Positions 32,695 through 44,255 of a stretch of 64,000 bases of DNA are shown here, in pieces. The stretch covers positions 2,163,059 through 2,227,058 of the forward strand of contig NZ_CP089975.1 of assembly GCF_029581575.1 (NCBI RefSeq), read 5' to 3'. The notes beneath the pieces were generated by a model. The model was not told where the DNA came from. It ran no database searches and worked only from the letters and a program-made list of their open reading frames with translations. Numbering within the stretch: the first letter of the stretch is position 1; every line of letters starts with the position of its first letter. The translations under genes were made by a program, and so were the position numbers. Source of the DNA: Moraxella nasibovis (lineage in GTDB: Bacteria > Pseudomonadota > Gammaproteobacteria > Pseudomonadales > Moraxellaceae).

Positions 32695-33576
32695 ATGAAG
32701 TCTTATCTGTCATTTTTGCCTTTGTTGATTTTGCCGCCATTATTTTGGGCGGGCAATTTTGTGGTGGGCAAGGCGCTGCACAGCGACATTGCGCCATTTT
32801 CCTTAGTGTTTTTGCGCTGGGTGATTGCGTTTTTGGTGATTTTGCCATTTGCGTGGCGATTTTTGTGGCGTGATCATGCCTTGTACTGGGCGCATCGATG
32901 GCGGGTACTGGCGACGGCGATCGTCGGTGTGACGAGCTTTAACGCCTTGATTTACAAGGGTTTGCACGACACGACCACCACCAATGCCCTTTTGTTAAAC
33001 TCATGCATTCCTGTCTTGATCGTGCTTTTTGGCGGGCTATTCTATGGACAAAAAATCCAGCCAAAACAGCTCATCGGACTCATCATCTCGCTCATCGGCG
33101 TGCTGACGATCATCCTACAAGGCGAGCTGGTCAGGCTCTTGTCGCTGTCGTTTAATATCGGCGATGTATGGGTGTTTTTGGCGATGATTTGCTGGGCGTT
33201 TTATACCATTTGGACCAAGTCTTTTCCAAGCCAAATCAACAAAATCGGTCTCACCACCGTGCAAATTGGCATCGCCATCATCGCCCTTTTGCCGTTTTTT
33301 GTGTGGGAAATTACCTCAGGGCAAGTGCCGCATTTTCATCAAAAATCACTGGCAGGGCTTGCCTACATTGGCATTTTTCCCTCCGTGATCGCCTATCTGC
33401 TTTATACGCTGGCGGTCGAGAAGGTGGGTGCCGTACGAGCTGGGCTATCCATCCACTTAATTCCTGTGTTTGGCGTGCTGATCGCCACGACGATGCTGGG
33501 TGAGCGATTCTTAGGCTTTCATGCCACAGGCATCGCCCTGATTGCGCTTGGTCTCATTCTCTGCCAAAAAAGCTGA
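32695..33576 (+). CDS. EamA/DMT-family transporter
   Basis: Drug/metabolite-type exporter of 293 residues, ten predicted membrane helices made of two EamA repeats (about 5-140 and 150-290). The first repeat shows PPLFWAGNFVVGKAL and the second VFLAMICWAFYTIW. Substrate unknown. Its 3' end overlaps the convergent hxlR-type gene by 23 bases. Confidence 0.85.
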   Translation: MKSYLSFLPLLILPPLFWAGNFVVGKALHSDIAPFSLVFLRWVIAFLVILPFAWRFLWRDHALYWAHRWRVLATAIVGVTSFNALIYKGLHDTTTTNALLLNSCIPVLIVLFGGLFYGQKIQPKQLIGLIISLIGVLTIILQGELVRLLSLSFNIGDVWVFLAMICWAFYTIWTKSFPSQINKIGLTTVQIGIAIIALLPFFVWEITSGQVPHFHQKSLAGLAYIGIFPSVIAYLLYTLAVEKVGAVRAGLSIHLIPVFGVLIATTMLGERFLGFHATGIALIALGLILCQKS

Positions 33577-33937
33577 CGCCCCAACGCACCGCTTGCACTG
33601 ACCTGCAAAATCTCCGCCAAATTATTCTCAAGCCAATCCACCAAATGATAAATCCGCTCGCCTGCCGTCCGTATTCGGTGAGCGTATAATCGGTATGCGG
33701 TGGCACGGTGTCGTACGAGTGGCGGATGAGCATGCCGTCTGATTCAAGCTGCTTTAAGGTCTCCGACAGCATGCGCTCGCTCACGCCTTCAATTTCACGG
33801 CGAATTTCACTAAATCGCTTGGTGCCGTCAAGCAGCTCAATCATCACCAAAACACCCCAACGGCTTGTTAAGTGATGAAAAATCTCACGACTGGGGCAAT
33901 CTTTGGATAAAACACGCCCTTTTTCAAAATCTTTCAT
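33554..33937 (-). CDS. HxlR-family regulator with frameshifted C-terminus
   Basis: Winged-helix regulator of the HxlR/MarR-like group; residues 1-95 are typical (CPSREIFHHLTSRWGVLVMIELL, SERMLSETLKQLESDGML, YTLTEYGRQA). After about residue 94 the frame departs: one base beyond the AGGCGAGCGG stretch near 33660-33670 the alternative frame reads ERIYHLVDWLENNLAEI, the normal C-terminal dimerisation helix. A missing base is the simplest reading. The fold may still bind DNA but the dimer helix is lost. It is divergent from the reductase gene. Confidence 0.7.
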   Translation of the reverse strand: MKDFEKGRVLSKDCPSREIFHHLTSRWGVLVMIELLDGTKRFSEIRREIEGVSERMLSETLKQLESDGMLIRHSYDTVPPHTDYTLTEYGRQASGFIIWWIGLRIIWRRFCRSVQAVRWGVSFFGRE

Positions 33938-33979
33938 TAAAATTACTCTGATAAATCAATGAATTAACAATTATTTTTA

Positions 33980-33999
33980 TACTTACTTTTTTGTAAGTA
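33980..33999. promoter_or_regulatory. palindromic operator of the HxlR-type regulator
   Basis: TACTTAC and GTAAGTA flank a six-T spacer in the gap between the regulator and the divergent reductase. Placement and dyad fit an autoregulated HxlR site. Confidence 0.6.
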
Positions 34000-34071
34000 C
34001 TTCTATTTTTAAATTTAATAATTATAATAAATCATACCAACACAAAAATCAATTTATCGTTTGGAGTTTTT

Positions 34072-34626
34072 ATGAGTAAAATCCTTGTCATTTCCGCCCA
34101 TCAAGATTTAAATCATTCGGTCAGTAACTAGTTGATTTTAAAAGAATTGGAGAACCATTTTGGCGAAAAAGTGAGCGTTCGCCGCCTCTCCGAGCTGTAC
34201 CCTGATTACAATATTGATGTGAATGCCGAACAACAAGCCTTGCTTGACGCTGATGTGGTGCTATTTCAATACCCCACCTTTTGGTTCAATGTGCCGTCTA
34301 TTTTGCAAAAATGGCTAGAAAGTGTGTGGCTCTACGGCTTTGCCTATGGCGAAGGTGGCGATAAATTGCACGGCAAAAAACTCTTGGTTTCTACCACTAC
34401 TGGCTCGGTGGCGGACACTTATGATGGGCAAATCGTGGCGACAATGGACGATTTGGTCAAACCTGTCAAGCATTCGGCTCTTTATACAGGCTGTGAGTGG
34501 CAAGGCGTGTATCCATTGCACGGGGCGTTGTATTTGGCGGGCGTACACGATGAGAATTATTTGGCAAAGGTACAAGCTAATGCCAAAGCCCACGCCAAAA
34601 CTTTGATTGAAAAATTGAAAAATTGA
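34072..34626 (+). pseudogene. NAD(P)H quinone reductase-like flavoprotein with early stop
   Basis: Flavodoxin-like fold of the MdaB/KefF type. The natural ATG at 34072 (GGAG seven bases before) gives MSKILVISAHQDLNHSVSN, then TAG at 34129-34131 where other members continue with a helix; after it the frame stays open to 34626 with FQYPTFWFNVPSILQKWLE and STTTGS. The stop is one base from CAG. Restart at the TTG just after it would lack the FMN-phosphate loop. It is divergent from an HxlR regulator, the usual controller of such enzymes, and that gene is damaged too. Confidence 0.75.
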
Positions 34627-34832: not shown

Positions 34833-35456
34833 ATGCAATTTATCTATCTCTTTGACCCCTTATGCGGCTGGTGCTATGCCTCATCAAAAGGCATTGGCGA
34901 GCTTGCCAGAACGCACGATATTGATGTGTATGCCACAGGACTTTTTGCCAATACAGGCAAAATGATTGACGCACAATTTGCCCATCACGCTTGGAGCAAT
35001 AACACTCGCATTAACCAATTAACAGGCTTGCCATTTAGCGAAAATTACCGTCAATTATTATTAAAAGGTGGCGAATTTAATTCTTTTTATTTAATCGTTG
35101 CTTGTGTGTTGTTAAAAAATTCTAAGCCTGATGAATTATTGCCAGTATTCTCACAGTTGCAAAAAATGCGGTATGTGCACGGATTGGATACAAGCAGATT
35201 AGCAGTCGTTAAAAATGGTTTAATCGCACTTGAACAAACTGACATTGCCGAAAAATTGGAAAATGCCGACAGTCAAAAATTGGCAAATGATTGGATAGCA
35301 CAAGGGCAAAAACTGGCGTATCAGTTTGCCATCAATGGTGTGCCCAGTTTGATTGCCAAAACTGATAAAGGTTATGTGAATATCCCAAGCCAATTTTTAT
35401 ATCAAGATACAGAAAATGTGGCGAAAAACATTGAGCAGTTTTTAAGCCAAATCTGA
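34833..35456 (+). CDS. DsbA-family thioredoxin-fold protein
   Basis: 207-residue thiol-disulfide oxidoreductase-like protein. CGWC active site at residues 11-14, helical insertion in the middle, and the cis-Pro loop NGVPSLIA near 170. There is no signal peptide, so it acts in the cytosol like FrnE-type proteins rather than as periplasmic DsbA. AGGAATAAA precedes the ATG. Confidence 0.8.
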   Translation: MQFIYLFDPLCGWCYASSKGIGELARTHDIDVYATGLFANTGKMIDAQFAHHAWSNNTRINQLTGLPFSENYRQLLLKGGEFNSFYLIVACVLLKNSKPDELLPVFSQLQKMRYVHGLDTSRLAVVKNGLIALEQTDIAEKLENADSQKLANDWIAQGQKLAYQFAINGVPSLIAKTDKGYVNIPSQFLYQDTENVAKNIEQFLSQI

Positions 35457-35481
35457 TCACAACACCCCTCATCAGCGTGAT

Positions 35482-36333
35482 TTATGTGATTTGATATTCC
35501 AAGCGAAACTCATTCGCCGTTTGACCTTCGTATTTTTTAAAAAACTTAGCAAATTGCGTGCCGTCAATGAACCCAAGCTCTGCTGCGATGGCATTGATGG
35601 AGGATTTGCTATGCACAAGTAGGCGTTTGCTTTCTAATAGCACCCGCTTTTCAATCACGGTTTTGACGCTCTCGCCCGTTTTATTTTGGCACGCCAGATT
35701 TAAAGTTTTGGGCGAGCAGTTTAGGGCATTGGCATAAAACTGCACTTGCTTTTGAGTCAAAAAGTGCGCCTCCAACAACGCCATGAATGCCAAAAAGCGT
35801 TTTTCGGCTGGGGTTTTGGGGTGGTCTTGGGTGAATTTTTGGGTGAGATAATACAAAAAAGCGGTCAGCTGACTTTGTAAAAAAGGGATTTTGGCGTCCA
35901 ATTCCTCAAAGGCATTGCCACTTTGTAATAATTGTCCAAAACTGGTCAAATCATCAATGTCTTTTTGATCAAAGGGTTGTACGCTGGGTAAATTGCTCAA
36001 ATCCACGCTTTTTAATAAAAAATCCTCACGCCACGCCACAAAAAAACCGTTGCCATTGTCAAAATCCAGCACTTGATGCACTTGATTGGGGCGGATCAGC
36101 ATGGCTTGCCCTGCCGCTAGGGTAATTTGTTCGCAATCAAGCATTTGCTTGGTCTGCCCTTCGATGCAAATGATCCACACAAAAAAACTGAGCCGATGCA
36201 CGCTAAAAAGTTGACTGATGATGTGCTGCTGCTGGTCGTCTGGGGACTTTAAATAAGCATTTAAAAAATTACAATTAAAGCCAATGTTGTTTGAAGGACT
36301 TGCCTTCAATAAAGGAATGTCAAAAGGTTTCAT
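35482..36333 (-). CDS. AraC-family transcription regulator
   Basis: 283 residues. N-terminal cupin-like ligand domain (about 20-140) with FFVWIICIEGQT and LIRPNQVHQV, then two helix-turn-helix motifs in residues 180-283: YANALNCSPKTLNLACQ and INAIAAELGFIDGTQFAKFFKKY, the family signature. It is divergent from the esterase gene. The gap between them holds the first of four matching double-sites, and no other regulator is near the other three, so this protein is the best candidate to bind them. Effector unknown. Confidence 0.88.
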   Translation of the reverse strand: MKPFDIPLLKASPSNNIGFNCNFLNAYLKSPDDQQQHIISQLFSVHRLSFFVWIICIEGQTKQMLDCEQITLAAGQAMLIRPNQVHQVLDFDNGNGFFVAWREDFLLKSVDLSNLPSVQPFDQKDIDDLTSFGQLLQSGNAFEELDAKIPFLQSQLTAFLYYLTQKFTQDHPKTPAEKRFLAFMALLEAHFLTQKQVQFYANALNCSPKTLNLACQNKTGESVKTVIEKRVLLESKRLLVHSKSSINAIAAELGFIDGTQFAKFFKKYEGQTANEFRLEYQIT

Positions 36334-36369
36334 TTTTACCCTAAAACTGTTTTATTTTGCCCTATTTTA
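36332..36369 (+). promoter_or_regulatory. AraC-type double operator, copy 1 (esterase/araC gap)
   Basis: Half-sites ATTTTTACCCTAAAAC (36332-36347) and ATTTTGCCCTATTTTA (36354-36369), 22 bases apart start to start. Oriented toward the esterase gene at 36487 and touching the araC-type start codon, so it could also autoregulate. Confidence 0.65.
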
Positions 36370-36486
36370 ATGTATTTTACGCTGTTAAAATAGAGTGTTT
36401 TTATGATAATTTAAAAAAATGATGTATGGGAGCATTTTAAAGTTATAATAATTTCAATTTTCGCAATTTTTTAAAGACACTACAAA

Positions 36487-37392
36487 ATGCTTAACAAACC
36501 CAATTTGTCCCACTTGCCAATGTCGGCAATCACTCGTTTGTTGTTTTTAATCAACCGTAGAGCAAAATTTGAAAATGCCTGTGCGGTGGAAAAACACATC
36601 GCCAAGCGAAAAGCACGAGCCGACATTCCCAAATCTTTGCGTAAAATTTGCGACATTTCGCATAATGATATAATGGAGCGAGAAGTCATCACCCTTAGCC
36701 CAAAGCACGGTAAAAGTACGGCAACGCTGATGTATTTGCACGGTGGGGCGTATGTGTTTGATTTGGTCAGTCAGCATTGGCAACTGGTTGAATATTTGAT
36801 TAAAAATGGCGGTATTAGCGTGGTTGTGCCGATTTATCGCCTTGCCCCACAAGGCACAGCAGACACAGAGTTGCCGTTTGTGTTGGCGGTGTATGATAGA
36901 GTGTGTGCAATGAGCGACAGGGTGTTTGTGGCAGGCGACAGTGCGGGTGGGAATTTGGCGATGAATTTGACGCTCTCCTTGCGTGATAAGGGCGTGGCGT
37001 TGCCAAAGCGTTTGTTTTTGTTTTCGCCGTGGCTGGATTTGAATACCGATAATCCTGATATTGACGAAAAATTACAAGCAAAAGACCCAATGCTGGCGGT
37101 GGACGGCATCAGGTGGTGTGCTGGACTTTGGGCAAATGGGGCGGATTTAAATTCGCCACTGCTTAGCCCAATCTTTGCCGATTTGACAGGCTTACCACCC
37201 TTGCATATCTATCAAGGGGAAAATGATATTTTCTGCCCTGATGCCAAAAAACTTGCCCAAAAAGCAAGCGAGCAAGGAGCGGATTGTACCTTAAATCTTT
37301 ATGAGAATGCCTTTCATGTCTTTATGGCATTGCCAAAACTATTGCCAGAAGCAAGGGCGGTGCTTGATGATGTGATTGAAAGAATGAAATAA
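36487..37392 (+). CDS. alpha/beta hydrolase, hormone-sensitive-lipase family esterase
   Basis: Carboxylesterase of 301 residues. Oxyanion motif HGG at 85-87, nucleophile Ser152 in GDSAGGN, Asp in the LYENAFHVF region with its His downstream. No signal peptide, so it acts inside the cell, likely on short acyl esters. It is divergent from the AraC regulator and carries the double operator in its promoter. Confidence 0.88.
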   Translation: MLNKPNLSHLPMSAITRLLFLINRRAKFENACAVEKHIAKRKARADIPKSLRKICDISHNDIMEREVITLSPKHGKSTATLMYLHGGAYVFDLVSQHWQLVEYLIKNGGISVVVPIYRLAPQGTADTELPFVLAVYDRVCAMSDRVFVAGDSAGGNLAMNLTLSLRDKGVALPKRLFLFSPWLDLNTDNPDIDEKLQAKDPMLAVDGIRWCAGLWANGADLNSPLLSPIFADLTGLPPLHIYQGENDIFCPDAKKLAQKASEQGADCTLNLYENAFHVFMALPKLLPEARAVLDDVIERMK

Positions 37393-37393
37393 G

Positions 37394-37432
37394 ACAAACG
37401 CCGTCCAAGTGGAAATTTGGGCGGTGTTTTAT
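37394..37432 (+). terminator. terminator of the esterase gene
   Basis: AACGCCGTCCAA and TTGGGCGGTGTT form a stem with two mismatched or wobble pairs, followed by TTTTATTT. Confidence 0.75.
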
Positions 37433-37493
37433 TTAAAAATAAATTTTGCAAAATATGATTTTATGATAAAATATTTTATTTTAATCCATTGCC

Positions 37494-37910
37494 ATGTACG
37501 AACAATTACGCTTATCCAATCAAATCTGCTTTCCACTTTACGCCATTTCCAAAGAAATCGTTCGCAGGTATTCGCCCTTTTTGGACGAGCTTGATTTGAC
37601 TTATCCGCAGTATCTGGTGATGCTGAGCCTTTGGGAATTTGGTGAGCAGAGCGTGGGCGAGATTGGCGAAAAGTTGCACCTTGACAGCGGGACGCTAACC
37701 CCCCTATTAAAACGCTTGCAAGCCAAAGACTTAATCACACGCACCCGTAGCCAAACAGACGAACGCACCGTGATGATAACCCCGACCAATCAAGGGCGAG
37801 CCTTAGAGCACAAGGCGGTCGACATTCCAACCAAGATGGCGGACTGCTTTAACCTAACGGCTGATGAGATGGCGGTACTACAAAAAATCGCCCATCAAAT
37901 AACCCTTTGA
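37494..37910 (+). CDS. ohrR: organic-peroxide-sensing MarR-family repressor
   Basis: 138-residue MarR-type repressor. Cys12 in QICFPLYAISK is at the peroxide-sensing position of OhrR; winged-helix with LHLDSGTLTPLLKRLQ and DERTVMITPT. It is next to ohr on the same strand and probably represses it; oxidation of Cys12 would release it. Confidence 0.9.
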   Translation: MYEQLRLSNQICFPLYAISKEIVRRYSPFLDELDLTYPQYLVMLSLWEFGEQSVGEIGEKLHLDSGTLTPLLKRLQAKDLITRTRSQTDERTVMITPTNQGRALEHKAVDIPTKMADCFNLTADEMAVLQKIAHQITL

Positions 37911-37965
37911 TTTTTATTTAAAATTTAAAAAGCACAAAATTCGTGGAAAAATTTTATAAAAAATA

Positions 37966-37994
37966 TTGCACACAATTTAATTTTAAACTATAAT
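37966..37994 (+). promoter_or_regulatory. promoter of ohr
   Basis: TTGCAC at 37966-37971, a 17-base spacer, then TATAAT at 37989-37994, ending 34 bases before the ohr ATG. An OhrR site is likely to overlap but no clear dyad was fixed. Confidence 0.7.
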
Positions 37995-38028
37995 AATTTC
38001 ATCAATAATTAACGCTTTGGAGCAATTT

Positions 38029-38460
38029 ATGAAAATCTTTTATCACACTTCGGCAACCGCCACAGGTGGACGAAACGGTCATACTCGTGTAGATGACGGC
38101 TCAATTGGCTTTGATTTGGTCGGCTTTCAAAACACAGACGGCAAAACTGGCACCAACCCAGAACAGCTGTTTGCGATGGGTTATGCGGCGTGCTTTGACA
38201 GTGCGATGAACCATGTCGCCCCAAGTTTGGGCATCAAACCGACCAAGTCCAGCACCACCGTTGCGGTCGGTATCGGTCAAAAGGCGGAAGGGGCGTTTGC
38301 ATTGGATTTGGACATCACCGTTAGCGTTGAAGGCGTGAGCCGTGATGATGCCAAAAAATTGATTCAAAAAGCCCACGAAGTTTGCCCGTATTCTAATGCA
38401 ACTCGTGGCAATGTGGAGGTGCGTTTGCATGTGAAAGTGATTGACGAGTTTGATTTGTGA
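38029..38460 (+). CDS. ohr: organic hydroperoxide resistance protein
   Basis: Thiol peroxidase of the Ohr/OsmC family that reduces organic hydroperoxides with lipoylated proteins as donors. 143 residues, active Cys55 (GYAACFDSAM) and resolving Cys119 (HEVCPYSNATRGN). GGAG lies eight bases before the ATG at 38029. Pairs with ohrR upstream. Confidence 0.95.
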   Translation: MKIFYHTSATATGGRNGHTRVDDGSIGFDLVGFQNTDGKTGTNPEQLFAMGYAACFDSAMNHVAPSLGIKPTKSSTTVAVGIGQKAEGAFALDLDITVSVEGVSRDDAKKLIQKAHEVCPYSNATRGNVEVRLHVKVIDEFDL

Positions 38461-38502
38461 TTTTATGCAATTTATAAAATCAGACAAATTATAAAGATGC
38501 AC

Positions 38503-38534
38503 AAAAATCCCCCAATTCATACTGGGGGGTTTTG
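38503..38534. terminator. terminator between ohr and the convergent lipoprotein gene
   Basis: AAATCCCCC and GGGGGGTTTT around an eight-base loop, suited to both convergent genes. Confidence 0.85.
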
Positions 38535-38556
38535 TCTTTGGCTAAGTTAATTTTGA

Positions 38557-39927
38557 TTATTTTTTATTCATCAAATAATCCGCCACCGCTTGATACGCAG
38601 GCAATGACCATGGGTCGTTATTGGCGTTGCTGGCGATTGGGTTTGATGAGAAACGCACCAAAACCATCTCGGCTTTTGGATCAATATAAATCGCCTGACC
38701 GTGAATGCCTCGTGCCATATACGCACCGTTGTCGTTGTGCGTTACCCACCACATGTTGCGATAGCTCCACCCTTTTAAGTTCGGATAGCCGCCTGTGGAG
38801 AATTTGGCACGGTCGCCACCTTTTTGGGTGTCAGCAACCACTTCGGGAGCGATGATTTGCTTGCCGTTGAATTTGCCGTTATTACGCATCATCTCGCCAA
38901 ACATCGCCATATCACGCAAGTTTAGACTCATGCCACCGCCTGCAAAGGGAATGCCCGAACCGTCAATTTGCATATAGCCGTCCACATTTGCCCCAAGTGG
39001 CTTTAAGAAACGCTCAGAAAACAGCTCGTCCACGCCTTTGCCTGTGGTGCGAGCGATGATCCATGCCAGCACATCAGTGTTCACCGTTTTGTATTCAAAG
39101 CCTGTGTCGTGCGGGTGGTCGGCTTTCTCGACAGTCGTTAGGTATTCATAAGTGTTCTTAGGACCAGAATAACCCGGCTCTTGCAGACCTGGCGTGCTTG
39201 CCTTGCCAAAAGCGTGAATCTCTGCCTCTGGGTCGGCATAATCCTCGCTGTAATCAAGCGATGCCGTCATGTCCATCACTTGACGCACGGTGGCATCTTT
39301 CCATGCAGAAGTTTTTAGTTCTGGCACATAATGGGTTACTAATTTGGTGTCATCAATCACACCCTCATGCACAAGCTGTGCTGCTAGTGTGCCTGTAAAA
39401 CTTTTGGTAACCGACATCAAAAGGTGTGTGCCTTCTGGCTTTAACGCCCCAAAATAATTCTCATAAACAATCTTACCCTTGTGCAGCACAATCATGCCAT
39501 CGCCATAGACTTTGCGAACAAAAGCATCCTCCACCGTCATTGGCTTGGTGTCAAACATGGGAACAAAGCTGACATTGCCGATGTTTTTGTCAAGTGCCAC
39601 AGGGAAAGTGTAGCGGTCTTGTTGGGCGGCAGAGACCACTTTGGTCGGCGTGATGCTTCGCACATTGCTAAATGCCCAACGAATGTATGGGTATTGCTGA
39701 GCGTTTAATAGATTCACCGTTTTGTCAGCAGGTGGCGGAAAGCCTTGCATGATGCCTAATTTGACAGGGTCAGACTCGATGCCATCTGGATAAGTGGGCG
39801 TGTCAGATTTGGCGGCTGGCTGCGAGGTGGCTTGTGGTTTGTGGCTTTGAGCGTGGCTTTGGCAAGCAGACAGCGTTAAAGCAGACAAGGCAAGCCCCAT
39901 CATCAGATACAATGGTTTGATTTTCAT
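38557..39927 (-). CDS. lipoprotein serine hydrolase of the beta-lactamase/6-aminohexanoate-dimer hydrolase family
   Basis: 456 residues. Lipobox LSAC at 19-22 gives an N-terminal lipidated Cys, so the enzyme is membrane-anchored on the periplasmic side or surface. The class C beta-lactamase-like fold is shown by SVTK (172-175) and a Tyr-containing second motif near TASLDYSEDY. Related enzymes cleave amides or esters (EstB, NylB); true beta-lactamase activity is not implied. ATG at 39927 has AGGA eight bases before it. The promoter carries an inverted copy of the double operator. Confidence 0.85.
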   Translation of the reverse strand: MKIKPLYLMMGLALSALTLSACQSHAQSHKPQATSQPAAKSDTPTYPDGIESDPVKLGIMQGFPPPADKTVNLLNAQQYPYIRWAFSNVRSITPTKVVSAAQQDRYTFPVALDKNIGNVSFVPMFDTKPMTVEDAFVRKVYGDGMIVLHKGKIVYENYFGALKPEGTHLLMSVTKSFTGTLAAQLVHEGVIDDTKLVTHYVPELKTSAWKDATVRQVMDMTASLDYSEDYADPEAEIHAFGKASTPGLQEPGYSGPKNTYEYLTTVEKADHPHDTGFEYKTVNTDVLAWIIARTTGKGVDELFSERFLKPLGANVDGYMQIDGSGIPFAGGGMSLNLRDMAMFGEMMRNNGKFNGKQIIAPEVVADTQKGGDRAKFSTGGYPNLKGWSYRNMWWVTHNDNGAYMARGIHGQAIYIDPKAEMVLVRFSSNPIASNANNDPWSLPAYQAVADYLMNKK

Positions 39928-40024
39928 CACAATTTCCTATATTAAGTTCAATTTGGTTAAAAGTTGGATTAAAAACTTTAAGAGATACATCCCTAAAATT
40001 TATTATAAAACATCTTGAAAACGC

Positions 40025-40062
40025 AAGATAGAGACAAAATGCGAAAATTTCAGGGTAAAAAT
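40025..40062 (-). promoter_or_regulatory. AraC-type double operator, copy 2 (lipoprotein hydrolase)
   Basis: On the minus strand ATTTTTACCCTGAAAT (40062-40047), six bases, then ATTTTGTCTCTATCTT (40040-40025). Same 22-base step; points toward the hydrolase gene 98 bases away. The second half is the weakest of the set. The surrounding gap 39928-40291 holds nothing else that I can recognise. Confidence 0.55.
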
Positions 40063-40197
40063 AGGAAATTGACCATTTTAAAAGAAGATTTTAAAAGAAA
40101 TAGAAGTAAAAAGCACGCACCGATTAAATTGCAAATCCAAATAAAAATTTCATTTCCCAAAAACCCAATTTAAATGTTAAGCGTGCCAATATTACCC

Positions 40198-40235
40198 ATT
40201 TTTACCCTAAAATGGTGTGATTTTGACATTTTTTT
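40198..40235 (+). promoter_or_regulatory. AraC-type double operator, copy 3 (dehydrogenase gene)
   Basis: ATTTTTACCCTAAAAT (40198-40213), six bases, then ATTTTGACATTTTTTT (40220-40235), pointing to the dehydrogenase start 57 bases on. Confidence 0.65.
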
Positions 40236-40291
40236 GTTTGCTTATTTTTTGTTAGAATAGGATGAAATTCATTTTTTTAACGGAGTTTATG

Positions 40292-41179
40292 ATGAGCTTA
40301 AATAATCTAACAGTTTTGGGTGCGGGCGTTTTGGGTTCGCAAATTGCCTTTCAAGCGGCGTTTCACGGCGTGAAAGTGGTGAGCTACGACATCAACGAGC
40401 AAGCCTTAGCAAACGCCAAAAAACGCTATGACGCATTGGTCGGCGATTACAAAAAAGATTTGAGCGCCAGCGATGAGCAAATCGCCCAAGCCTTTGACAA
40501 TTTGACCCTATCGTCTGATTTGAGCGAAGCGGTAAAAAATGCCGACATCATCATTGAAGCCGTGCCTGAGAATTTGGAACTGAAAAAGCAAGTTTGGGCG
40601 GATGTCGGACAGCTTGCCCCTGCTCACACCATTTTTACCACCAACACTTCTACGCTACTGCCAAGTGCGTTTAATGAAGCCTCTGGCGACAAATCTCGCT
40701 TTTTGGCACTACACTTTGCCAACCGCATTTGGGTGCAAAACATCGTGGAAGTGATGGGAACGGCGGATACCGATCCAGAAGTCGTCAAAGCCACCGAACA
40801 ATTCGCCCGCCAAATGGGCATGGAGCCAATCGTCCTGCACAAAGAGCAAGCAGGCTACATCATCAACAGCTTGCTTGTGCCGTTCTTGCACGCCGCCAGC
40901 CACCTGCTTGCCAATGATGTCGCCAGCGCCAAAGACATTGACAAAGTATGGCGTATGGCGTCAGGCTCGCCCAAGGGTCCGTTTGAGGCGATGGATACGG
41001 TGGGACTTCGCACCGTGCATACCATTCACTCTGCCAAAGCTGAGGCGACAGGCGATCCTTTGACCGCTCACTTTGTCGAAATTTTAAAAAGTGAGTACCT
41101 TGATAAAGGCAAAACAGGTCGTGAAAGTCGCTCAGGCTTTTATGAGTATGACGACAACGGCAAGGTGATTTTGGATTAA
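40292..41179 (+). CDS. 3-hydroxyacyl-CoA dehydrogenase, NAD-binding type
   Basis: 295 residues. Rossmann motif GAGVLGSQIAFQAAFHG at the N-terminus, then the C-terminal helical domain with GPFEAMDTVGLRTVH. Single-domain hydroxyacyl-CoA dehydrogenases oxidise beta-hydroxyacyl-CoA; some of this size act on carnitine or gulonate instead. The second of two adjacent ATGs (40292) has CGGAG six bases before it. Belongs to the proposed AraC regulon. Confidence 0.8.
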   Translation: MSLNNLTVLGAGVLGSQIAFQAAFHGVKVVSYDINEQALANAKKRYDALVGDYKKDLSASDEQIAQAFDNLTLSSDLSEAVKNADIIIEAVPENLELKKQVWADVGQLAPAHTIFTTNTSTLLPSAFNEASGDKSRFLALHFANRIWVQNIVEVMGTADTDPEVVKATEQFARQMGMEPIVLHKEQAGYIINSLLVPFLHAASHLLANDVASAKDIDKVWRMASGSPKGPFEAMDTVGLRTVHTIHSAKAEATGDPLTAHFVEILKSEYLDKGKTGRESRSGFYEYDDNGKVILD

Positions 41180-41248
41180 GATCTGATCATCATTGTGACT
41201 GAGCCGATCCGCCTTAGACACTCTTGGATGTCTTAGCACAATGACAAA

Positions 41249-41289
41249 CCGCTCCCCCCAATCAAATGAGGGGCTGAGCGCTTTTTTGT
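41249..41289 (+). terminator. terminator of the dehydrogenase gene
   Basis: GCTCCCCCCAAT and ATGAGGGGCTGAGC form a bulged stem followed by a T-run. Confidence 0.65.
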
Positions 41290-41361
41290 TTTTTGGATCA
41301 GTCCGCTGAATTTTTTGAGTTTGATGCTTTTTTTGGGGTGTTCGTCGGTTTAAAAACTCCC

Positions 41362-41403
41362 ATTTTTACCCCAAAATTTTCCAATTTTGACCTATTTTAT
41401 AAT
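41362..41403 (+). promoter_or_regulatory. AraC-type double operator, copy 4, with -10 box (MFS gene)
   Basis: ATTTTTACCCCAAAAT (41362-41377), six bases, then ATTTTGACCTATTTTA (41384-41399), directly overlapping TATAAT at 41398-41403, the likely -10. No good -35 is present, as expected for an activator-dependent promoter. Confidence 0.7.
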
Positions 41404-41447
41404 AACAAAATCCATTAAAATAGCAAAATTTATGATGATGCGTTCAC

Positions 41448-43052
41448 ATGGCACTCCACGATAACGGTTATGTTTTTAAACCTGACGAACAGCCCTTCAT
41501 GGCAGGCTCGCCTGCGTCGCCCATTCACAAGGGCAAGCGCAAATTGGCGTATGTGCTGATTGGGCTGTTGCTCATTTTTTGTGCAGGTTTGCAAAATGGA
41601 CTACTCTCTGCCAATGTGCCGCAAATGCGTGGGGCGTTGGCGCTTGATGTGATGCAAGGCGTGTGGGTGCAGTCGGCGTATCTGATGGGTAATGCGGTCA
41701 TGGGATTTATGTGGCTAAAAATCCGTCAGCATTATTCTTTGCAAAAGTTTGTGCGTTGGACATTACTGCTCATGTTTGTCAGCAACATGCTCCAAACTTT
41801 CAGCAATCGTTTCGAGCTTGAACTCATCGCTCGTTTTGTCATGGGCGTTGGCACGAGCGGGCTTCTGACTTTGGGCATGTTTTATTCCATGCAGACCTTT
41901 CGAGCGGGCAGTGCGTTGATTCCACTTGCTCTATCGGCGGGGCTGATGCAGGCGGTGTCTAGCCTGTGTTACATGATTTCGCCCACACTGATGGCAGATG
42001 GCAACATTGAGGCTATTTTTGTTTTTCAGCTCGCCATCACGCTCATTTGTCTGTCGGCGGTGCTATGGCTGCCCCTACCAAAGGGTTATCACGAGCCGTC
42101 TTTGACTTGGCAAGACTGGCTAACTTTTGGGCTGTTTGCCACAGGCATGGCACTTTTGTGTGGCTATTTGAGCTTGGGCAATGTACTGTGGTGGACGACC
42201 AACTGGCTTGGGTTTTTATTGGCTGGTGGCGTGGGCTTGATTGGCTTGGCGTTGTGGTTTGAGGCGGGACGAGAGAGACCACTCATTAACTGGCATTGGA
42301 TTTCGGCACGGCAGATTGCCTATTTTTTATTGATGGCGATGATGACACGGCTGTTTACCACCGAGCAGAGCGTTGGGGCAGGGGGCGTGCTAAACCTGAT
42401 GGGACTGTCAAGTGAACAGTTGTACGATTATTATAAAATCATCTTTTTGGCAAGTCTGGCAGGGCTTGTGATGAGTATCGTTACCCTAAACCCCAAAGAT
42501 GTGCGTAAAAACACCGTCATCGCCCTGTTTGGCATTGCGTTGGGGGCGTATTTGGACATTGGCGTTACGGTGGATACGCCTGTGTCGCATTTTTATGTGA
42601 GCCAAGCCTTGATCGCTTTTGCCACTTTTTACTTCTCAGGGCCTGTGATGTTAGAGGGTATGGTGCGAGCGATTGCCGAGGGCATTGACCAGATTGCAGG
42701 TTTTATCGCCGTGTTTTCGGCAACCCAAGTTTTGGGCGGACTTCTGGGCAATGCCGTGTTTGGGGCGTATGTGAACATCAAAACCACAGAACATTTATCA
42801 AATCTCGCCGCCCAAATCGTGCTTGACAACGGCACCATCACCGCCCAAAACGCCACGCAAGCGATGCAAATGGCGAATATGGAAGCTCGTATTTTGGCGT
42901 ATAACGATTTGTTTTTTGTCATTTGGGTGGTGGTCAGTGTGATGTTTGCCGTCAAATTTGTGGTGTGGGCGTATCGGCGGTATCATAAAATTGATGTGCT
43001 TGAAGTGGAAATGCAAAAACTGCAAGCCTATTTGGAAAGTACAAAAGCTTAA
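41448..43052 (+). CDS. DHA2-type MFS exporter, EmrB/FarB-like
   Basis: 534-residue permease with about 14 membrane helices and a short cytosolic N-tail (1-30) and coiled C-tail. Architecture and the HlyD partner that follows place it with EmrB/FarB-type drug or fatty-acid exporters; several conserved DHA2 loop motifs are weak, so substrate is open. No TolC-type gene is adjacent. Transcribed from the operator-bearing promoter just upstream. Confidence 0.8.
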   Translation: MALHDNGYVFKPDEQPFMAGSPASPIHKGKRKLAYVLIGLLLIFCAGLQNGLLSANVPQMRGALALDVMQGVWVQSAYLMGNAVMGFMWLKIRQHYSLQKFVRWTLLLMFVSNMLQTFSNRFELELIARFVMGVGTSGLLTLGMFYSMQTFRAGSALIPLALSAGLMQAVSSLCYMISPTLMADGNIEAIFVFQLAITLICLSAVLWLPLPKGYHEPSLTWQDWLTFGLFATGMALLCGYLSLGNVLWWTTNWLGFLLAGGVGLIGLALWFEAGRERPLINWHWISARQIAYFLLMAMMTRLFTTEQSVGAGGVLNLMGLSSEQLYDYYKIIFLASLAGLVMSIVTLNPKDVRKNTVIALFGIALGAYLDIGVTVDTPVSHFYVSQALIAFATFYFSGPVMLEGMVRAIAEGIDQIAGFIAVFSATQVLGGLLGNAVFGAYVNIKTTEHLSNLAAQIVLDNGTITAQNATQAMQMANMEARILAYNDLFFVIWVVVSVMFAVKFVVWAYRRYHKIDVLEVEMQKLQAYLESTKA

Positions 43053-43142
43053 CGATGAATTTAAAATAACTTATTGATTTAGTTTGTTAAATGAAATTTA
43101 AGTTTGATTTTAAAACTTAAAATTGGCAAAGCGAGAACCAAA

Positions 43143-44255
43143 ATGACCGACAACAATCCAACAAACAACAATGATTTGCCAAATGACGCACAATCAGCAC
43201 AAGATCAAACTTGGCAACCCAAGAAAAAATCCCCTGCCAAACGCTTGCTCGTTTTAGCACTGCTCATCGCAGGGGTGATTGGGATTTTGTACGCTTATCA
43301 ACTACCGCCTTTTTCGCCTAGTTACATCGAGACCAACAACGCCTATGTGCGTGGCAAGCCCACCCAAGTCAGCCCAAAAGTGGCAGGCTATGTGCGTCAG
43401 ATTATGGTGCAAGATTATCAGTTTGTGGAAAAAGGTCAGCCCCTTGTGCAGATTGAAACCGACCAATACGAGATGAGACTTGCCCAAGCCAAAGCAGGCG
43501 TGCTAAGCCAACAGGCGACTCTTGGCAAAATCAAGCAAGCCCAAAATTCCGCCGCCGCCAATGTCGCTGTGATGGATGCTAATATTGAGTCGGCAAAGGT
43601 CAATCTTGCCAACGCCAAAGCCCAGCACGCACGACTGGCAGAGCTTGTCAAAATGGACGCCGTGTCTCGTCAGGATTTTGAAAACTCGCTTGCCAATGTG
43701 CAAAAAGCCGAAATCGCCGTCTTACAAGCCCAAGCCCAAAAGAAAAATGCCGAACAAGAGATTGCCAATGTTGTTGTCAATGAAAAGAGCAATCTGGTGG
43801 CGATTGACAATGCCAAAGCAGGGCTTGAACTTGCCGAATTGGAGCTGTCGCAAACCTTGATTAAAGCCCCGATTAGCGGACGGCTGAACGAGATTTTGGT
43901 CAAAGAAGGTCAGCTTGTGGCGGTGGGGGCGAATTTGATGAGCATTGTGCCGTCTGATTTGTGGATTGTTGCCAATGTCAAAGAAACCGAAATTAGCCAA
44001 ATCGCCATCGGACAACCTGCAACCATCACGGTGGATGCACTTGGCAGTAAGCAAGTTTTGACAGGCAAAGTGGTGCAAATCGCCCCTGCCACAGGCTCAG
44101 AATTTAGCGTCAATAAAACCGACCCTAGCACGGGCAATTTTATCAAAGTCGCCCAACGAGTGCCTGTCAAAATCGCCTTTGACAACCCAACTGACGCCAG
44201 CCAAATCCAAATGGGAATGAGTGCGGTGGTGAGGATTGATAAGGTAAAAGAATGA
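43143..44255 (+). CDS. HlyD/EmrA-family membrane fusion protein
   Basis: Periplasmic adaptor of 370 residues: polar N-tail, one membrane segment at about 36-54, lipoyl-like halves around ETNNAYVRGKPTQVSPKVAGYV and LIKAPISGRLNEILVKEGQLV, and a long coiled coil between (about 115-215). Partner of the MFS exporter 90 bases upstream. ATG at 43143; the frame upstream lacks family sequence. Confidence 0.88.
   Translation: MTDNNPTNNNDLPNDAQSAQDQTWQPKKKSPAKRLLVLALLIAGVIGILYAYQLPPFSPSYIETNNAYVRGKPTQVSPKVAGYVRQIMVQDYQFVEKGQPLVQIETDQYEMRLAQAKAGVLSQQATLGKIKQAQNSAAANVAVMDANIESAKVNLANAKAQHARLAELVKMDAVSRQDFENSLANVQKAEIAVLQAQAQKKNAEQEIANVVVNEKSNLVAIDNAKAGLELAELELSQTLIKAPISGRLNEILVKEGQLVAVGANLMSIVPSDLWIVANVKETEISQIAIGQPATITVDALGSKQVLTGKVVQIAPATGSEFSVNKTDPSTGNFIKVAQRVPVKIAFDNPTDASQIQMGMSAVVRIDKVKE

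Follow-up and report, generated by a model that had tools for sequence, protein, structure and literature searches.

A 64,000-nucleotide stretch of the Moraxella nasibovis genome (the window) contains a gene for an AraC-type regulator (araC) and, divergent from it, a predicted esterase gene (est). Beyond est lie an ohrR–ohr pair, the gene of a predicted lipoprotein hydrolase with a beta-lactamase fold (bla), a 3-hydroxyacyl-CoA dehydrogenase gene (hadh) and a tandem pair for a major facilitator superfamily (MFS) exporter and a HlyD/EmrA-like adaptor (mfs–hlyD; Table 1). Five genes thus separate araC from the pump, which has a site of its own. Four similar direct-repeat sites stand in front of est, bla, hadh and mfs–hlyD, and we consider them here as candidate operators of the AraC-type regulator.

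The initial annotation had placed four sites at 36332, 40062 (minus strand), 40198 and 41362, each facing its own gene and with a 22-base step between the half-sites. Sequence inspection agrees on all of these points: every site is oriented toward its own gene and is a direct repeat whose half-sites start 22 bp apart (four of four). The first half-site is ATTTTTACC in all four, and the second half-sites of the window operators are ATTTTGCCC, ATTTTGTCT, ATTTTGACA and ATTTTGACC, with operator 2 having the weakest. The proposed 38-bp double operator therefore holds as a shared pattern and not as to its length, because the less similar second halves bring the common unit closer to 30 than to 38 bp. 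The pattern is not frequent elsewhere: the closed genome (2,227,058 bases) contains four exact matches, all inside a 5-kb part of the window, none with one or two mismatches and two with three. The reversed pattern, used as control, was matched three times when three mismatches were allowed and never when the limit was two. By these counts, the sites are no common element of the genome. The ohrR–ohr pair (37494-38460) sits inside the predicted regulon without a site for the AraC-type regulator, as had been noted initially; between 37400 and 38500 a single score exceeded 10, at 10.1, compared with 36.9–37.9 for the four operators.

The strongest additional feature, absent from the initial annotation, is a -10-like element whose distance from the site is constant. 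In each of the four window sites, position 55 or 56 is the first base of a hexamer that matches TATAAT in five or more of its six bases; when the sequences downstream were dinucleotide-shuffled 5000 times, a -10-like hexamer at a common offset never arose. This position puts the second half-site at the predicted -35 region. The hexamers 17 bp before the predicted -10s (TATTTT, TATCTT, TTTTTT and TATTTT) lie directly past the core of the second half, and none of the four predicted promoters has a TTGACA-like hexamer at that distance, as expected of promoters requiring an activator. When the sites of all species were taken together, the -10 was present at the set distance in seven of seven sites followed by a target gene or its remnant and in none of the three remaining sites. 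As far as can be predicted from sequence, the arrangement matches that of AraC/XylS-type promoters that depend on an activator, with a direct-repeat operator that lies at the predicted -35 region and whose halves are some two helical turns apart.

Table 1. Genes, candidate operators and predicted -10 elements of the araC locus (positions in the window; scores in bits, family cut-offs in brackets).
Feature	Positions	Strand	Evidence or remark
AraC-type regulator gene (araC), 283 aa	35482..36333	-	cupin-like sensor domain and DNA-binding domain with two helix-turn-helix (HTH) motifs
Operator 1, esterase promoter	36332..36369	+	exact pattern match
Operator 2, beta-lactamase-fold hydrolase promoter	40025..40062 (start 40062)	-	exact pattern match
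Operator 3, hydroxyacyl-CoA dehydrogenase promoter	40198..40235	+	exact pattern match; 33.6 bits with other-species model
Operator 4, efflux pair promoter	41362..41399	+	exact pattern match; 32.3 bits with other-species model
-10-like hexamer TAAAAT, predicted esterase promoter	36386..36391	+	site position 55
-10-like hexamer TATAAT, predicted hydrolase promoter	40002..40007	-	site position 56
-10-like hexamer TAGAAT, predicted dehydrogenase promoter	40253..40258	+	site position 56
-10-like hexamer TAAAAT, predicted efflux promoter	41416..41421	+	site position 55
Alpha/beta hydrolase, hormone-sensitive-lipase-like (est)	36487..37392	+	PF07859, 153 (25)
OhrR-like MarR regulator (ohrR), outside regulon	37494..37910	+	NF052638, 170.5, below cut-off (200); no site
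Ohr peroxiredoxin (ohr), outside regulon	38029..38460	+	TIGR03561, 159.9 (88.85); no site
Beta-lactamase-fold serine hydrolase, predicted lipoprotein (bla)	38557..39927	-	PF00144, 116.4 (27)
3-hydroxyacyl-CoA dehydrogenase, PRK08293 type (hadh)	40292..41179	+	NF006143, 381.4 (312)
Major-facilitator exporter (mfs)	41448..43052	+	PF07690 (MFS_1), 39.5 (33.4)
HlyD/EmrA-like periplasmic adaptor (hlyD)	43143..44255	+	TIGR01730, 112.3 (94.9)

To relate the sites to the regulator, we compared the locus with those of Moraxella oblonga (G071, same genus), M. boevrei (G050, which this taxonomy places in a neighbouring genus) and a further genome, G058. Four genomes have an araC match that spans most of the protein (identity 100% in the window, 78% in M. 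boevrei, in two reading frames, 67% in M. oblonga and 42% in G058), and each of the four has a site that starts at the start codon of araC, sharing the letters AT with it; the three relatives thus carry it at the position that operator 1, sharing two bases with the regulator's start codon, has in the window. Divergent from araC lies the esterase gene in the window, an esterase remnant in M. boevrei and, in both M. oblonga and G058, mfs–hlyD. A second site, better than the one at the start codon and 94 bp away from it, is present in M. oblonga. These sequence comparisons support the view that regulator and operator stay coupled while the neighbouring gene is exchanged between species.

Scans of whole homologous loci (30 of 65 mfs matches and 30 araC-like loci from 104 matching genomes) point the same way. 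The matrix was derived from seven sites, that is, from the positive sites themselves; the high scores of these sites are not independent of it, the low scores of the other loci are. Four of the 30 araC-like loci (window, M. oblonga, M. boevrei and G058) score at least 30.0 and the other 26 at most 11.5, and three of the 30 mfs loci (window, M. oblonga and G058) score at least 30.0 and the other 27 at most 12.1. At the remaining target genes a site occurs at the window copy only: one of five hadh loci (the other four at most 14.9), one of six bla loci (the other five at most 13.0) and one of 24 est loci (the other 23 at most 11.3; the M. boevrei remnant lies outside these loci). A class-wide search for further relatives returned 10 of 369 genomes at E≤1e-20, own genome included, and 11 other loci from this search showed no site.

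Genome-wide profile scans, in which 150 first-look candidates per genome were scored, separate the operators from the rest of the genome. With a seven-site profile (150 of 1559 candidates) the four operators reach 42.7–57.1 bits and the next match 17.7 bits; with a profile built from the M. boevrei, M. oblonga and G058 sites only (150 of 792 candidates), the est (46.0 bits), hadh (33.6 bits) and mfs (32.3 bits) sites are the top three in the genome and the next unrelated match has 15.2 bits.

The regulator itself has an N-terminal cupin-like ligand-binding domain and a C-terminal AraC-type DNA-binding domain with two HTH motifs, as members of the AraC/XylS family do, and its predicted fold consists of two domains, a RhaR-like cupin and an AraC-type DNA-binding part. 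Its identity to AraC structures is 11–24% over the aligned parts. The best NCBIfam match is HpaA (TIGR02297), whose cut-off of 274.65 bits is far above the 74 bits reached, so that the protein falls outside this family; its distant named matches are “activator of pobA”. Among the top full-length Foldseek matches to the predicted fold are fatty-acid-bound regulators, a weak hint because full-length AraC-type structures are few. Within its own genome the regulator has two matches, the second of them weak.

Taken together, co-occurrence and neighbour exchange across species, AraC-like promoter geometry and the predicted two-domain AraC-type fold argue for the product of the gene at 35482-36333 as the binder of the sites, in line with the initial annotation. 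The regulator likely binds the four sites as a dimer and thereby likely activates the predicted esterase, lipoprotein hydrolase, hydroxyacyl-CoA dehydrogenase and MFS/HlyD efflux pair. An inducer would occupy the cupin-like domain, and the dimer would span both half-sites, with the second at the -35 region, and recruit RNA polymerase. This would be class II activation, the way in which XylS and AraC act. Binding to operator 1 would probably also dampen the regulator's own expression, because this operator covers its start codon.

Several observations weigh against a functional regulon of this extent. With the other-species profile, the bla site scores 11.2 bits (rank 15) and is lost in noise, and the est match adds no independent evidence, since operator 1 and the M. 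boevrei site are near-identical orthologs. The G058 orthologs of hadh (84%) and bla (71%) are unlinked and without a site, so that these two genes are not conserved members of the regulon. The first half of operator 1 includes the Shine-Dalgarno-like GGGT of the regulator, which places the copy beside araC under a second constraint. In M. oblonga two of three sites misfit: one is without a -10 at the set distance, and the third (L079, 14168, minus strand) lies downstream of hlyD and faces a short broken frame and an IS1 transposase-like piece, its target gene perhaps having been lost. In M. boevrei, araC lies in two frames (L080, 9529-11039) beside an exact operator, only C-terminal esterase pieces were matched beside it, and a search for the pump at E≤1e-60 gave no match in this genome; on these grounds its site may be a relic and the locus perhaps a decaying copy. 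Finally, in a metagenome-assembled genome (MAG), G094, araC is represented by a C-terminal piece alone (75% identity, with a TAG), and a different contig has a weak site-like match of 25.7 bits, barely above a 25.2-bit partial match in G103, a genome without the regulator. The G094 match is at most a candidate site, since its -10 is out of place and there is no gene after it.

What the regulon might do can be stated less firmly. The initial annotation had proposed uptake, cleavage and oxidation of an ester or hydroxyacyl compound with export of a toxic product. This proposal is supported in part, by the presence of the enzyme classes and the export pair and by esterase–pump and bla–hadh neighbourhoods that recur in other species; its uptake step and its substrate are conjectural. 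In G063 (L184, 3540-7256), a contiguous same-strand run of mfs, hlyD and est lacks the operator and is divergent from a different AraC-type gene (PF12833, 75.6 bits), the est match having one TAG. In G089 (L157, 5036-9010), likewise without the site, an NADH:flavin oxidoreductase gene (PF00724, 192.8 bits) stands between homologs of bla and hadh that share a strand, and the three are possibly a catabolic cluster. The best candidate for a core target is the pump, since two relatives have it immediately beside the regulator, and we infer that pump and esterase form the old core, with hadh and bla as later recruits in the window lineage. The signal might be an ester-derived acid, fatty-acyl or aromatic, and the cell might cleave the ester, oxidise part of the product and pump out the toxic excess. 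We tentatively propose, as a reading that may well need revision, that an undescribed AraC-type subfamily of Moraxella and its relatives runs a portable esterase-plus-export module in which the operator is kept and the genes are swapped, that the module has come to four promoters here after operators were gained at the lipoprotein hydrolase and hydroxyacyl-CoA dehydrogenase genes, and that one switch couples ester breakdown to the export of a toxic acid.

With the weakly inferred substrate part of the main reading alone competes the possibility, which we regard as real though somewhat doubtful, that an aromatic acid or its ester is sensed in the manner of PobR or HpaA in place of lipid-derived acids; the esterases would then release this compound and the pump would carry it out of the cell. 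The HpaA model as best NCBIfam match, though far below its cut-off, and the distant “activator of pobA” matches suggest such a signal, whereas the regulator lies outside the HpaA family, a hydroxyacyl-CoA dehydrogenase suits acyl chains better, and the fatty-acid-bound Foldseek matches point, weakly, to acyl ligands.

Activation by the AraC-type regulator could also be replaced by repression, the same protein binding the four sites and an inducer releasing the genes. Binding beside or over the -35 could block polymerase, and the start codon of the regulator itself lies under one site; however, none of the four predicted promoters comes near TTGACA in the hexamer 17 bp before its -10, as a need for an activator predicts. 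Moreover, direct-repeat sites of AraC at such a position are classically activating. The same is described for XylS at Pm (PMC5481539), and we consider repression as the main mode improbable.

More improbable still is that OhrR, the HxlR-type regulator (33554-33937) or a distant protein owns the sites, with araC as a bystander. OhrR-like and HxlR-type genes are indeed nearby, and the weak G094 match adjoins an hxlR homolog and not araC, yet site and araC occur together in all four genomes with a near-full araC match, and tblastn detected no hxlR or ohrR homologs in the 20 kb of sequence surrounding each of the M. oblonga and G058 copies. In addition, MarR and HxlR proteins usually bind palindromes, unlike the direct repeat seen here. 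Chance likeness among AT-rich promoters, which the AT-richness of the sites and their common T-runs might suggest, is practically negligible given the whole-genome counts with reversed control, the gap between 42.7 and 17.7 bits, the ranking by the other-species profile and the co-occurrence across species.

Activation by the AraC-type regulator would follow a well-known kind of mechanism, with a regulator subfamily, operator and regulon that are apparently undescribed. Searches of the open-access literature returned no paper on this regulon or on such a regulator in the genus, which is weak as evidence of absence. E. coli AraC (araI1-I2) shares the cupin-like sensor and the AraC-type DNA-binding domain, and its direct-repeat site lies at the -35 region, as predicted for the window sites; the first half ATTTTTACCC of these resembles the araI1 stretch ATTTTTATCC. 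It differs in that no sugar genes are among the window targets, and in the low identity given above. Families of the HpaA/PobR type are the closest curated ones by score, but neither an hpa nor a pob gene is present among the ten neighbouring proteins scanned. The exporter pair resembles EmrAB, and presumably FarAB, in its tandem of MFS permease and HlyD/EmrA-like adaptor, although it lies outside the curated families: mfs reaches 23.4 bits with the EmrB DHA2 model TIGR00711 (cut-off 230.2) and hlyD 216.4 bits with the EmrA/EmrK model TIGR00998 (cut-off 390.8). At Pm, the half-site step is 21 bp. The window sites differ from those of XylS at Pm in their 22-bp step, their half-site sequence and their four target promoters. 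Both systems have two direct-repeat half-sites upstream of the core promoter, read (as predicted for the window sites) by two-HTH subunits, and at Pm XylS contacts two homologous 15-bp direct repeats (PMC5481539).

The predicted regulon has four promoters and a clear operator and looks complete, the genome scans having shown no other strong site. A regulator and operator with changing targets across related species would illustrate on a small scale how regulons are rewired in nature, and the operator would offer a direct route to the inducer and hence to the substrate of the pump. A wider regulon in the same genome was considered and is unsupported, the best further matches among the candidates scored (150 of 1559 and 150 of 792) being the 17.7- and 15.2-bit ones.

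The est product carries the motifs HGG and GDSAG at residues 85 and 150 and belongs to the Abhydrolase_3/hormone-sensitive-lipase-like group; with the named GESAG subfamily it scores 147.6 bits, below the cut-off of 430. The bla product has an LSAC lipobox and an SVTK motif and matches only the broad PF00144 domain, with 23.2 bits for the class C beta-lactamase model (cut-off 415); its nearest solved relatives are 6-aminohexanoate-dimer hydrolases (E 3.4e-61). For the hadh product, a member of the PRK08293-type family, the nearest solved relative is the diketoreductase 4dyd (E 5e-90).

An Rfam scan of 35000-43500 returned no family. A 21.3-bit match in G094 (G094:C22), located before a tyrS-like gene and over a hairpin-like stretch (both labelled by eye), was set aside as chance. 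In the same MAG (L081, 6658-10070) the C-terminal araC piece adjoins ohrR and ohr homologs, like the gene order of the window. In the window, the HxlR-type regulator gene at 33554-33937 is divergent from a frame with a Flavodoxin_2 fold; this stretch, 33554-34626, adjoins a DsbA-like gene at 34833 and is perhaps a separate unit, possibly of a redox type.

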